Below, piece by piece: positions 2,250-8,065 of a DNA stretch of 51,327 nt. Position 1 is the stretch's first letter; each line of letters opens with the position of its first letter. The stretch is from Syntrophomonadaceae bacterium (GTDB lineage Bacteria; Bacillota; Syntrophomonadia; Syntrophomonadales; DTU052): contig JAAYEQ010000048.1 in the NCBI GenBank assembly GCA_012728655.1, positions 1 through 51,327 of the forward strand, written 5' to 3'. Both the position numbers and the translations under genes were made by a program. The notes under the pieces are model-generated. The model searched no databases. It had not been told where the DNA came from and saw only the letters and a program-made list of their open reading frames with translations.

Positions 2250-2830
2250 TTAAGAATTATAAGTGGAGGTTGCAGTATTCTAGTCAATCTCACCAGTTCT
2301 GAAGACGGGCCTAAAAATCCGTCGCGGGCACATCGATGAAGATTCTGGTGTCAGCTTTCGACGCCCAGTTGGGGGTTGGTGCTGGAAGTTAAGGGTGTCG
2401 GGGCAGCCCGCAATGGCATGCGGGAACTGACCCCCCACCCGTGGAGGCTCCGGGGAGAAATCCCTGGAGAAAACCTGCATCTGGTTGGAAGCTGGGTGCA
2501 GTGTAGCCTGCCTTGAGTGGTATGGGCGGATGAGCCAAAGAAGGGCGGTGACCGATGGCCACGGCGCCGTCTGTTCTTCTGAAACCCATACTGCAAAAGA
2601 GGCTAAGAACTGGCCGGGGTTGTCGGGGAAATCCCCTAGACTGTGTGCGAAGGCACAGCCCTCTGGGGATTAAAGTGTGCACTAAGTGGTAATCCAGCCT
2701 CGTATACGGCGACGTTACGGGTTGAGCGTAAAGGGAAACCGCCTGCTTGGCGACAAGCAGGATGTTCAACGGGAAAACCTGCTGGACCTAAGTCACAGCG
2801 TTTACTCAGAGGGCAACCTCCACTTTCGTG
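2250..2830 (+). ncRNA. ole: OLE RNA (ornate, large, extremophilic RNA)
   Basis: This is a protein-free stretch of about 580 bases between the EF-G-like terminator and oapA. The ends pair perfectly: AAGTGGAGGTTGC (2261-2273) with GCAACCTCCACTT (2813-2825), 13 bp, the hallmark of a closed, highly structured RNA. Inside are further hairpins, for example CCTGCTTG (2742-2749) and CAAGCAGG (2754-2761) around a GCGA (GNRA) tetraloop, and short purine-rich internal loops. No intrinsic terminator follows; the stem ends 13 bases before the oapA ribosome site, so RNA and mRNA are probably one primary transcript. OLE RNA is known from extremophilic and anaerobic Firmicutes, is about 600 nt long, lies directly upstream of oapA and the dxs/tlyA/nadK genes, and forms a membrane ribonucleoprotein with OapA. 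Size, partner and gene order all match. I could not align it to the published consensus. Confidence 0.88.
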
Positions 2831-2851
2831 TATTTAACAGGGAGTGTATTT

Positions 2852-3433
2852 TTGTCGAAGCCTAAAGATAGTAACATACTTATACCGGCCCTTTGGGTTG
2901 CATTCTTCACCTTTTTATCCGGTTTGATTATCAGCCTGGGACTGGAGTCGATTATCAGTGCGGTTCGGGACCTGTTCATCTCTTTTGTGCTCCTGGGACT
3001 GGTAATACTGTCGGGTATCGTTTCCGATGCCATTGGCACCGCAGCGGCGGCGGCGGATATAGTTCCGTTTAACGCCATGGCGGCCAAGAAAATACCGGGG
3101 GCCTCCCAGGCGGTCAGACTGGTTCAAAATGCGGATCTGGTCGCCAACCTGACGGCCGATGTGATCGGAGATATTGCCGGAACCTTAAGCGGAGCGATTG
3201 GTGCTTCGATAGTATATACATTCAACACCCGATTTGCCATGTATTCATTTGTGGATACCGTATTCCTGGGAGCTGCTATGACCAGCTTGATAGCCGCCCT
3301 GACGGTTGGCGGAAAAACCGTAGGGAAGAGCATTGCCATCAACAATGCCAACACCATAATCTTCAAGGTGGCCGGAATACTAAGGTGGTTTGAAAACATA
3401 ACCGGGTTCGAGGTGTTCCCGGGAAGAAGGTGA
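2852..3433 (+). CDS. oapA: OLE-associated membrane protein OapA
   Basis: A 193-residue hydrophobic protein begins two dozen bases after the closing stem of the OLE RNA. It has an N-terminal membrane segment (about 7-32), a second (about 40-70) ending in an Ala-rich stretch, and a C-terminal hydrophobic segment (about 140-160), separated by a polar middle part containing DVIGD, a DxxxD motif. Family knowledge: OapA binds OLE RNA at the membrane and resembles the DUF21 part of magnesium-transport proteins; the RNP has been linked to magnesium homeostasis and to cold and alcohol stress. The TTG at 2852 is chosen because AGGGAG (2839-2844) is correctly spaced; the GTG at 2828 has no ribosome site and would sit against the RNA stem. 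Identification rests on position, size and topology. Confidence 0.85.
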   Translation: MSKPKDSNILIPALWVAFFTFLSGLIISLGLESIISAVRDLFISFVLLGLVILSGIVSDAIGTAAAAADIVPFNAMAAKKIPGASQAVRLVQNADLVANLTADVIGDIAGTLSGAIGASIVYTFNTRFAMYSFVDTVFLGAAMTSLIAALTVGGKTVGKSIAINNANTIIFKVAGILRWFENITGFEVFPGRR

Positions 3434-3439
3434 TCGAGT

Positions 3440-5329
3440 ATTCTACAGAGCATAAATAATCCCTCCGATTTGAAAAGGCTCCCGCCGGCGAAACTCAAGG
3501 ATTTATCCCAGGAGATCAGAGAACTTCTGATCAATACCGTTGCCCGGACCGGAGGTCATCTGGCGGCCAATCTGGGTGTGGTCGAACTTACCCTGGCCCT
3601 GCATTATGTGTACGATCTTCCCAAGGACAAAATCGTGTGGGACGTTGGGCACCAGACTTATGTACACAAGATGCTGACCGGCAGGCTGAAAAGAATAAAC
3701 AGCCTGCGCCAATATCAGGGTCTGAGCGGGTTTCCGCGGGTGGATGAAAGCCCGTACGATATTTTTAATACCGGACACGCCAGTACCTCGATTTCAGCGG
3801 CAGTCGGATTGGCCCTGGCACGTGATATAAGGCAGGAGAACCATTCCGTGGTGGCGGTAATTGGGGACGGAGCCTTAACCGGAGGACTGGCCTTTGAAGC
3901 GATGAACCACGCTGGTCATCTCGGGCTTGATTTTACCGTGGTTCTTAACGATAACGCCATGTCCATCTCTCCCAATGTGGGGGCCCTGGCAGGTTATCTC
4001 CGCAAGCTGCGAATGGATCCCGCCTATTCCCAGACCAAGGAAGAGGTGGAGCAGGCTCTCTTGCGCATTCCCGGGATCGGTGCCAACCTGGTGAAAGCCG
4101 CAGGCAAGATCAAGGATATGGTGAAGTACCTGGTGGTGCCGGGGATGCTGTTTGAGGAGTTGGGATTCACATATTTGGGCCCCATCGACGGTCACAATAT
4201 CGAAGAGATGATAATGGTGCTGCGGAGATCCCGCCATATCAAAGGCCCGGTGTTGGTCCATGTGATTACGGAAAAAGGAAAGGGTTATCCTCCCGCGGTC
4301 GAGAACCCGGATGTTTTTCACGGGATAGGGCCCTTTGACGTGGCCACCGGGAAGGCCATCAAATCCGGAATCAAGACCTATACCCAGGTTTTCGGCGAGT
4401 TCATGGTGAGAAAAGCCGAGAGTTCTCCGGACTTGGTAGCAATAACTGCCGCCATGGCCAGCGGAACCGGACTCAGCGTCTTTGCCGAAAAATACCCGGA
4501 TCGCTTTTTTGACGTGGGCATCTGTGAGGAGCACGCTGTGACCATGGCCGCCGGCCTGGCCAGCGGAGGACTGAGACCGGTAGTGGCGATTTATTCCACT
4601 TTCCTGCAGCGCAGTTTTGACCAAATTATCCACGATGTATGCCTGCAGAACCTGCCGGTAGTGTTTGCCGTCGACCGCGCCGGGCTGGTGGGCGAGGACG
4701 GTCCGACTCATCACGGGGTGTTTGACCTCTCCTACCTGCGGCAGATACCGAACATAATTGTTATGGCTCCTTCCAACGAAGATGAGTTAAACGATATGCT
4801 GGACTCGGCCCTGAGATACGGGCAGCCGGTGGCAGTACGCTACCCGCGGGGCAGCGGGGAAGGAGTGCAGATCAAGACCAGCCCGGAATACATTCCGCCG
4901 GGGACAGCACGGCTCCTGCAGGAGGGCGATCAGGTTCTGCTGGTGGCTATCGGCCGGATGGTTAACATCGCCGTGAAAGCCGCCGCTTATCTGCGTGAAC
5001 GGGGGATTTCAGCGGCGGTAATCAACGCCCGTTTCGCCAAACCGCTGGATGCGGATATGATAGGGATCTGGGCCGCTCGCTGCCGCCGCGTGGTGACCCT
5101 CGAAGAGAACGTCCTTATGGGAGGTTTCGGCGGAGCGGTGGCGGAGGCGATGAATTGCAAAGGGATAAGTGCGGAGTTCCTGCACCTGGGAATACCCGAC
5201 GCTTTTGTGGACCATGGTGCGGTAAACCGCCTCCTGGAGGATTTGGGGCTTGATGCTCCTTCGGTAGCGGCTTCGATCGTCAGCCGCTGGCCGGAGTTGC
5301 TTAAACAAAAAGCTGTCCGGGGGTTGTAA
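3440..5329 (+). CDS. dxs: 1-deoxy-D-xylulose-5-phosphate synthase
   Basis: Dxs condenses pyruvate and glyceraldehyde 3-phosphate with thiamine diphosphate, the first step of the MEP isoprenoid pathway. The thiamine-binding GDGALTGG...NDNAMSIS block, the EEHAVTMAAG glutamate motif and DRAGLVGEDGPTHHG are all present; about 629 residues is normal. The start is odd. In this frame the only codons after the oapA stop (3431-3433) are TCG, AGT, ATT, CTA and so on, and no ATG or GTG occurs. The residues after ATT at 3440 (LQSINNPSDLKRL) match the conserved Dxs N-terminus, and AAGGTGATC at 3427-3435 is a good ribosome site for it. TTG at 3470 has no ribosome site and would delete this conserved part. 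I therefore call an ATT start, coupled to oapA. The 3' end overlaps tlyA by one base (TAATG). Confidence 0.95.
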   Translation: MLQSINNPSDLKRLPPAKLKDLSQEIRELLINTVARTGGHLAANLGVVELTLALHYVYDLPKDKIVWDVGHQTYVHKMLTGRLKRINSLRQYQGLSGFPRVDESPYDIFNTGHASTSISAAVGLALARDIRQENHSVVAVIGDGALTGGLAFEAMNHAGHLGLDFTVVLNDNAMSISPNVGALAGYLRKLRMDPAYSQTKEEVEQALLRIPGIGANLVKAAGKIKDMVKYLVVPGMLFEELGFTYLGPIDGHNIEEMIMVLRRSRHIKGPVLVHVITEKGKGYPPAVENPDVFHGIGPFDVATGKAIKSGIKTYTQVFGEFMVRKAESSPDLVAITAAMASGTGLSVFAEKYPDRFFDVGICEEHAVTMAAGLASGGLRPVVAIYSTFLQRSFDQIIHDVCLQNLPVVFAVDRAGLVGEDGPTHHGVFDLSYLRQIPNIIVMAPSNEDELNDMLDSALRYGQPVAVRYPRGSGEGVQIKTSPEYIPPGTARLLQEGDQVLLVAIGRMVNIAVKAAAYLRERGISAAVINARFAKPLDADMIGIWAARCRRVVTLEENVLMGGFGGAVAEAMNCKGISAEFLHLGIPDAFVDHGAVNRLLEDLGLDAPSVAASIVSRWPELLKQKAVRGL

Positions 5330-6153
5330 TGTCCCGCGAAAGGGCCGATATCAGATTGTATAAAGCAGGCCTGGCTCCCAGCCGCGAGAAGGCCCGGGCC
5401 TTAATCCTCGCGGGGCTGGTCTTTGCCGACGGGCAAAGGGTTGACAAACCGGGGCAGATGATAAGCGAAAGCGCGGAACTTCAGGTAACGGACAACAGCC
5501 AATCTGGTTTTGTCAGCCGCGGCGGGATGAAACTCCTGGGAGCGATCGAGGCCATGAAGCTGGATTTTGCGGATAAGATCGTCCTCGATGTGGGAGCTTC
5601 CACCGGCGGGTTTACCGACTGTGCTCTGCAGCACGGTGCCCGCAAGGTTTATGCGGTCGATGTGGGTTACGGGCAGCTTGACTGGAGACTGCGCCAGGAC
5701 CCGCGGGTGGTCGTAATTGAAAGGACCAATATAAGACACGTGACCCCGGAGGATTTTCCGGAACAGATGGATATAGCTACAATTGATGTGTCGTTCATTT
5801 CCCTGCGGCTGGTGCTGCCGGCGGTAACTCCGCTGTTGACCGCTGCCGGGGAGATAGTGGCCCTGGTCAAACCCCAGTTCGAAGCCGGCCGTGAACAGGT
5901 GGGGAAAAAAGGGGTGGTCAAGAGCCCGGAAATCCACGAAGAGGTTCTCCGGGGGGTGACCCGGCAGGCTGAGGAATGCGGCCTGACGCTGGTGAATGCC
6001 TGCTACTCACCCATTAAGGGCCCGAACGGCAATATCGAGTTCTTCCTTCATCTTAAGAAGGGGGCGGTTCCCGCCTGCGATCATTCATTGCTTTCTCTCG
6101 TGGTGGCATCTGCTCATCGTGAGTTGGGTAAACCGAATGCCAACCGGGAATAA
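5329..6153 (+). CDS. tlyA: TlyA-family rRNA methyltransferase (hemolysin A family)
   Basis: This 274-residue protein has an N-terminal S4 RNA-binding domain (about 3-60; RADIRLYKAGLAPSREKAR) followed by an FtsJ/RrmJ-like Rossmann methyltransferase domain. The SAM motif is LDVGASTGGFTD, with DVGYGQLDWRLR and DVSFISLR downstream. Mycobacterial TlyA 2'-O-methylates 16S and 23S rRNA; the hemolysin name is historical. The activity of the Firmicutes branch is less well tested. The start ATG overlaps the dxs stop, so translation is probably coupled. Its place between dxs and nadK is the usual one in spore-formers. Confidence 0.93.
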   Translation: MSRERADIRLYKAGLAPSREKARALILAGLVFADGQRVDKPGQMISESAELQVTDNSQSGFVSRGGMKLLGAIEAMKLDFADKIVLDVGASTGGFTDCALQHGARKVYAVDVGYGQLDWRLRQDPRVVVIERTNIRHVTPEDFPEQMDIATIDVSFISLRLVLPAVTPLLTAAGEIVALVKPQFEAGREQVGKKGVVKSPEIHEEVLRGVTRQAEECGLTLVNACYSPIKGPNGNIEFFLHLKKGAVPACDHSLLSLVVASAHRELGKPNANRE

Positions 6154-7050: not shown

Positions 7051-7619
7051 GCCTTCGCAATGCGGTTGAACTTTCCCATTATTGTGTAAAAATGGTGGTA
7101 AGACCGGATGACACGGTTATAGACGCCACCTGCGGCAATGGGCATGATACCCTATTTCTGGCCCGGCTTGTGCCCGAGGGGCGGGTTCTTGCGTTTGATA
7201 TTTCGCCCCTGGCCATAAACAATACCGCCGCCAGGCTTGAAGAACACGGGGTATCGGAACGGGTGGAACTGTTCCAGGAGGATTTCCGCAACCTCCGGGA
7301 TTATGTTAAGTCACCGGTGGCGGCCATCATGTTCAACCTGGGGTATCTGCCCGGAGCATCCCGGGAAACCGCCACCAAAGCCGAGCATTCCAGACAGGCG
7401 GTGGAGAGGGCGGTTAAGCTGGTGCGCCCGGGAGGGGTGGTAACCGTGGTCTGCTATCGCGGCCATCAGGGAGGCCCCGAAGAGACGAGTGAGATTTTCG
7501 CGGTGACCGCAGGCTTGAGCCAGAAAGAATTCAAGGTTTTGAAGATTGATTTCCTGAACCAGGTTAATAACCCTCCGCTGCTGGTGGCGGTTTACAGGCT
7601 GGAAGGAGATAGAGCATGA
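7047..7619 (+). CDS. mnmM: YtqB/MnmM-type SAM-dependent methyltransferase
   Basis: This 190-residue class I methyltransferase has motif I DATCGNGHDTLFLA (about residues 26-39), an acidic strand-2 end (AFDIS) and the family signature MFNLGYLPG...T...S. It belongs to the putative rRNA methylase family that includes B. subtilis YtqB, which was recently assigned as MnmM, the tRNA wobble-uridine (mnm5s2U34) methyltransferase; that function is transferred here by similarity. The GTG start overlaps the nadK stop by four bases, and its own stop overlaps argR by four, so nadK-mnmM-argR are tightly coupled. Confidence 0.85.
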   Translation: MSLRNAVELSHYCVKMVVRPDDTVIDATCGNGHDTLFLARLVPEGRVLAFDISPLAINNTAARLEEHGVSERVELFQEDFRNLRDYVKSPVAAIMFNLGYLPGASRETATKAEHSRQAVERAVKLVRPGGVVTVVCYRGHQGGPEETSEIFAVTAGLSQKEFKVLKIDFLNQVNNPPLLVAVYRLEGDRA

Positions 7620-8065
7620 AAGCCAGACGTCACATGGCGATACGAGAGATCGTGTCCAATCAAAAGATATCAACCCAGGAGGAGCTGTGTGCAGCCTTAT
7701 CCGCCCAGGGTTTCATGGTGACCCAGGCCACGGTTTCCCGGGACATCAAGGAGTTAAAACTGGTGAAGGTGCCGGGACCGGAGGGATACCATTATGCCCT
7801 GCCGGATGCTTCGCCCCCCAGGTCATCATTGGACCGGATGCGAAGGATCTTTCTGGACACGGTGGTGGAGATAACCGACAGTGAAAACCTGGTGGTGGTC
7901 AAGACCATTCCCGGTTCGGCGCATCTGGTGGCCTCAAACATTGATGCCGCGGAGATACCCGAGATAGTGGGAACCGTGGCCGGCGATGACACCATTATCG
8001 TGGTGGTTAAGCCCACCAAAGCGGTTCCTGAAGTATTGAAATGGTTCCGTTCTCTGTTGACTTAA
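7616..8065 (+). CDS. argR: Arginine repressor ArgR/AhrC
   Basis: ArgR is a hexameric arginine-dependent repressor and activator of arginine metabolism genes. The 149-residue protein has the winged-helix DNA-binding half (about 1-70), including TQEELCAALSAQGF and the recognition segment QATVSRDIKELKLVK. The C-terminal arginine-binding and oligomerization half contains the GSAHLVASNIDA and GTVAGDDTIIVV motifs. It overlaps the previous gene by four bases (ATGA). argR upstream of recN is the standard Firmicutes order. A 7-bp stem (CCGGTCC at 8066-8072 with GGACCGG at 8080-8086) starts right after the stop but lacks a T-run, so it is not called a terminator. Confidence 0.96.
   Translation: MKARRHMAIREIVSNQKISTQEELCAALSAQGFMVTQATVSRDIKELKLVKVPGPEGYHYALPDASPPRSSLDRMRRIFLDTVVEITDSENLVVVKTIPGSAHLVASNIDAAEIPEIVGTVAGDDTIIVVVKPTKAVPEVLKWFRSLLT

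Follow-up and report, generated by a model that had tools for sequence, protein, structure and literature searches.

A complete OLE RNA with its oapA partner gene in a Syntrophomonadaceae genome

Introduction

What is the long noncoding stretch that lies between an EF-G-type gene and a small membrane-protein gene in a Syntrophomonadaceae bacterium (GCA_012728655.1, contig JAAYEQ010000048.1), and is it an OLE RNA, as an initial annotation made from the sequence alone had proposed? OLE is a large bacterial noncoding RNA that is located at the cell membrane together with the protein OapA. To our knowledge, it ranks among the largest RNAs of bacteria for which no biochemical function is known, model species included. 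The question was addressed in the whole stretch of DNA analyzed, a window of 51,327 nucleotides, and in related genomes. Positions below are those of the window unless a contig is named, and all window features lie on the + strand.

Identity and Extent of the RNA

In a cmscan search against Rfam 15, positions 2251-2836 (+) matched RF01071 (OLE) with 497.8 bits (E = 3.9e-143; gathering cut-off, 50). The match covered the model end to end (1-616 of 616) without truncation and spanned the closing stem P1, which bears out the proposed identity, and the OLE-like size also agreed, being 586 nt by Rfam and 565 nt from P1 to P1. RF01071 was the only Rfam match anywhere in the 51-kb window, and no other OLE was found in this genome. 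We regard it as practically certain that 2251-2836 is a complete, ordinary OLE RNA with an OapA partner gene. As in the full-length OLE class (Fernando and Breaker 2024, PMC11332333), the full model match, the published stems, the P9 loop, the k-turn and P13 sites, and the downstream oapA and dxs genes are all present; unlike that class, this copy has a short P8 region, and in this family an EF-G gene, not ispA, lies upstream.

The short P8 region, together with some model pairs that are unpaired here, might be read as the mark of a decayed, non-functional copy. However, the copy scores with the best of the order, every near-invariant position and partner site examined in an alignment of 40 OLE RNAs is retained, and both OapA and the promoter are intact, so that decay is scarcely credible. 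The identity of this intact copy is settled, and it is one more OLE of an already known kind. GTDB-wide searches for OLE exist in the literature (PMC11332333), and their tables probably list OLE for this group already.

Conserved Structure of the OLE RNA

The perfect 13-bp closing stem described in the initial annotation was recovered by sequence and by covariation. Specifically, the P1 5' strand, AAGTGGAGGTTGC (2261-2273), is the exact reverse complement of the 3' strand (2813-2825), and shuffling the two flanks 2000 times never produced a match as long as P1. In the alignment of 40 OLE RNAs, both sides had changed in 8 of the 10 P1 pairs counted, the strands being GUGGAGGUUG/CAACCUCCAC in this genus and CUGGCAAAAGGUUG/CAACCUUUUGCCAG in most of the order. 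Note that the bases of the two innermost pairs, G2272-C2814 and C2273-G2813, are also claimed by P10 and P2, which leaves P1 with about 11 bp in the mature fold. Over the whole structure, 86.8% of the cells of this alignment were paired and 913 were changed on both sides, as against 311 in shuffles, and the covariation signal was destroyed when the pairing partners were slid. A conserved secondary structure with covariation, closing P1 included, is present in the OLE alignment.

P1 and P3.1 are unpaired or absent in Rfam's structure, yet both covary in the 40 sequences. The 5' strand of P3.1 (2293-2300), a proposed membrane-spanning helix, pairs with 2606-2613, and 7 of its 8 pairs covary. The P2 core CUAG (2280-2283) pairs with 2636-2639 and CAGU (2273-2276) with 2640-2643, and this helix is nearly invariant, with no broken pair in the 40 sequences. 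The A-rich loop of P4, CUAAAAAU (2311-2318), is identical in 40 of 40 and corresponds to a published dimer contact (PMC12265935). The segment CGAUGAAG (2334-2341) of the k-turn region, to which OapC has been assigned in the literature (PMC9723947), is likewise identical in 40 of 40. The alignment also located the kissing loops of P5.1 (GCC; 2361-2369) and P6.1 (GGC; 2411-2420), as well as the self-complementary P9 loop UGGCCA (2556-2561), whose GGCC occurs in 39 of 40. At the sequence level, all dimer-contact loops (P4 A-rich, P5.1/P6.1 kissing and P9 palindrome) are present.

Two internal GNRA hairpins, instead of the single one initially noticed, were found by the Rfam match and the alignment. 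They are P13 (2699-2720), which is the published OapB-binding site, and P14 (2742-2761), with GCGA loops within 2708-2716 and 2749-2757, respectively. At each of the two sites, the commonest loop sequences among the 40 aligned RNAs are GNRA.

As a separate observation on P9, an OLE of about 557 nt in Clostridia M55B163 (contig L021, 7424-7980) has a shortened P9 that lacks the GGCC dimer loop and resembles published shortened variants.

Promoter and Transcription Signals

An extended -10 element had been noted ahead of the RNA, and comparison across relatives supports it. This element, TGCTATAAT (2235-2243), ends 8 nt before the start of the Rfam match at 2251; it has no good -35 (3 of 6 positions), and the -35 is poor across the genus. 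When OLE genes of the order were aligned on their conserved GCAGUAUNCUAGUC start, TGNTATAAT was found 24-31 nt upstream of this anchor in 29 of 30, this one included, and the remaining gene has TGATATACT. In more distant Eubacterium relatives the element is the same as in the order, and Marinococcus has TGCTAAAAT. An own ole promoter has already been reported in H. halodurans (PMC9723947).

Farther from OLE, at 2177-2205, the site TTGACG-17-TAGAAT resembles a sigma-A-type promoter and is shared across the genus. Further upstream, between the EF-G gene and OLE, a hairpin resembling an intrinsic terminator, AAGGGCTC-CAAGC-GAGCCCTT with a T-run (2130-2153), recurs in two further congeneric genomes; it was read by eye and was not returned by the consensus scanner.

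The 193-aa Protein Downstream of OLE

A DUF21-like membrane protein and dxs had been described directly downstream of the noncoding stretch, and both were found there. The first gene (2852-3433; 193 aa, TTG start) begins 15 nt past the end of the Rfam match, and its Shine-Dalgarno sequence, AGGGAG (2839-2844), lies 13 nt after P1. The protein scored 24.5 bits against Pfam CNNM, just below the cut-off of 28.4, and the open frame scored 28.9 bits, above it. It matched no NCBIfam model, and no PDB or PHROGs match identified it as OapA.

Homologues of the 193-aa protein directly follow OLE throughout the order. A count over 61 genomes of the order gave 47 with both OLE and OapA, 10 lacking the two and 4 with OapA alone; OLE without OapA was found in 0 of the 61. 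The four OapA-only genomes are explained by contig edges, beyond which OLE would lie: oapA is 107 bp from the contig end in one (G039; no OLE in that contig), at the first contig bases in two (G030 and G042) and 211 bp into the contig in another (G045). Judging from its position, this strict co-occurrence and the weak CNNM (DUF21) match, the protein is OapA, as initially proposed. Its size of about 190 aa is also that of OapA, and the conserved PFNAxAAKK motif occurs in its homologues. MpfA/CorC-type Mg2+ exporters (CNNM-CBS-CorC_HlyC) are probably distant CNNM relatives of OapA, the profile comparison with MpfA being weak (30.8% probability, E 5e-4); unlike these exporters, OapA has no CBS or CorC domains.

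On spacing, an OLE at 5638-6285 of contig L024 is about 1.7 kb upstream of oapA and does not adjoin it.

Cis Leader or Free-Standing RNA

Given that the oapA Shine-Dalgarno sequence follows P1 by only 13 nt and that sequence reading and a consensus scan of the window showed no terminator separating OLE from oapA, OLE might act mainly in cis, as a riboswitch-like leader controlling oapA and dxs on one transcript. Against this, a length of 586 nt, combined with several sites for protein binding and dimerization, goes far beyond a leader, and a separate RNA of about 630 nt accumulates in H. halodurans (PMC9723947). In addition, the distant Bacillaceae MAG GB_MAG13_007 (G061) has an OLE of 537.6 bits with a canonical intrinsic terminator at its end (AAGCCGCT...AGCGGCTT and T6; L108 ~2137-2163), with dxs next and no oapA between them. 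The oapA relative found in this genome (L019 7914-8597) lies on the same contig about 0.9 Mb off, with no OLE within 8 kb of it. OLE can thus be a free-standing transcript without linkage to oapA, which speaks against its being a leader alone; this arrangement disfavors the cis-leader explanation, which we consider improbable. The free-standing RNA is the reading preferred below, and a genome with unlinked OLE and oapA can help to tell roles in cis and in trans apart.

In several relatives, the P1 3' strand is followed within 20 nt by T-runs of 5-9, where only TTT is found here. In these relatives, such runs could possibly serve as a long-range terminator or bring about partial termination before oapA.

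The Upstream EF-G Gene and the Surrounding Cluster

The upstream gene (113-2122) encodes, as had been stated, an EF-G family GTPase (NF009381, 963.9 bits). It is of the EF-G2-like type, and the genome encodes three EF-G paralogues, this one included. The initial annotation had hinted that this neighbor matters. A functional tie, with translation control linked to the OLE particle, would be in line with the adjacency of the two genes in all three other family genomes whose OLE-upstream stretch was compared, and with the link of OLE to translation through bS21 in H. halodurans (PMC12054373). However, the terminator-like hairpin and two promoter-like sites separate EF-G from OLE, orthologues occur in genomes that lack OLE and, in G005, far from OLE, and the adjacency was seen only in this family, ispA occupying that place in most relatives outside it. 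On these grounds EF-G was rejected as an OLE partner; a tie is most improbable, the adjacency is incidental, and the gene is placed outside the OLE unit.

Specifically, xseB-ispA (or nusB-xseA-ispA) precedes OLE in most of the neighboring family, in Marinococcus and in other clostridia, and the ispA gene of this genome is on another contig, with EF-G in its place at OLE. Since ispA precedes OLE in most relatives outside the family, ispA-OLE-oapA-dxs is probably the ancestral order. Downstream of oapA, the genes run dxs (3440-5329), tlyA-type methyltransferase (5329-6153), NAD kinase, rRNA methylase, argR (7616-8065), recN, spoIVB and spo0A, a cluster type described for OLE. The presence of argR, recN, spoIVB and spo0A agrees with the spore-former part of the anaerobic spore-former cluster that had been proposed. 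Note that in H. halodurans, ArgR has been reported as a protein linked to OLE (PMC12265935).

Partner Proteins and a Proposed Working of the OLE Particle

Homologues of OapB, OapC and bS21 are encoded in this genome away from the OLE locus. The OapB homologue is a 110-aa KOW-like protein whose gene lies between map and infA in the ribosomal cluster; its best PDB match was 7k9b, "OLE-associated protein B" (E 1.8e-14), ahead of eL14, and the P13 site of the RNA is intact. The OapC homologue is a YbxF-like L7Ae protein encoded just before rpsL, with the YbxF-type L7Ae proteins 3v7e and 4lck as best PDB matches. The k-turn nucleotides are intact, and a YbxF-type match alone is no proof of OLE binding. 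No MpfA was found in this genome, the sole CNNM match genome-wide being OapA itself. The identity and fold of the RNA, the promoter motif, the full set of partner genes and the lack of a detectable MpfA are observations on this genome, and this copy adds to the known OLE RNAs one from a Syntrophomonadales genome that encodes every known partner and in which no MpfA was detected.

These observations would fit the following working. OLE would be transcribed from its own extended -10 promoter (2235-2243), with a start near 2250 and a transcript running into oapA, and an RNA of about 580 nt, stable and with P1 as its closing stem, would be released from this transcript. It would dimerize via the P4, P5.1/P6.1 and P9 loops, be held at the membrane by OapA, and bind OapB at P13, OapC at the k-turn and bS21 at P6. 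The particle may then help the cell to cope with energy, Mg2+ and membrane stress, a role that would overlap with that of MpfA-type Mg2+ exporters. Processing, dimerization, membrane placement and the stress role are inferred from published work on H. halodurans and from cryo-EM work on a clostridial OLE. Taken as a whole, an OLE and OapA locus that gives a membrane RNP with a stress role is very probably the right explanation, and its physiological part, considered separately, is somewhat favored.

Loss of OLE and oapA and Its Possible Relation to MpfA

OLE and MpfA were anticorrelated in a published survey (PMC11332333). One genome, G028 (L093), lacks both OLE and oapA, although three other sampled members of its genus have OLE. 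It encodes two MpfA-type proteins (CNNM, CBS, CorC_HlyC), and its OLE-bearing congeners encode none or one. This pattern fits the published anticorrelation and is suggestive only, because well over half of the nearly complete OLE genomes of the order also carry one MpfA; for the same reason, the anticorrelation was dropped as an order-wide statistic.

OLE and oapA may behave in evolution as a single cassette, open to clean removal and replaceable by MpfA-type Mg2+ exporters, a proposal that we advance tentatively, at slightly less than even weight. If it is true, cassette-less genomes are natural knock-outs for probing the role of OLE, and genome pairs with and without the cassette let the OLE/MpfA replacement idea be tested. 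In a third family, four genomes (G006, G008, G010 and G012) all lack OLE and OapA, and ispA is followed by dxs with no trace of OLE in three of the four, as read in the sequence. At the ispA-dxs junction of G028, about 80 bp replace about 1.3 kb, as examined by blastn against a relative, which G028 matches as far as the end of ispA and then from the ribosome-binding site of dxs onward.

With regard to the start of dxs in the window, the open frame reads ILQSINNPSDLK 7 nt past AAGGTG, with ATT at 3440-3442. ATT stands at that position in all genomes of the genus compared, and GTG stands there in a sister genus; dxs thus likely starts at a rare ATT codon at 3440.
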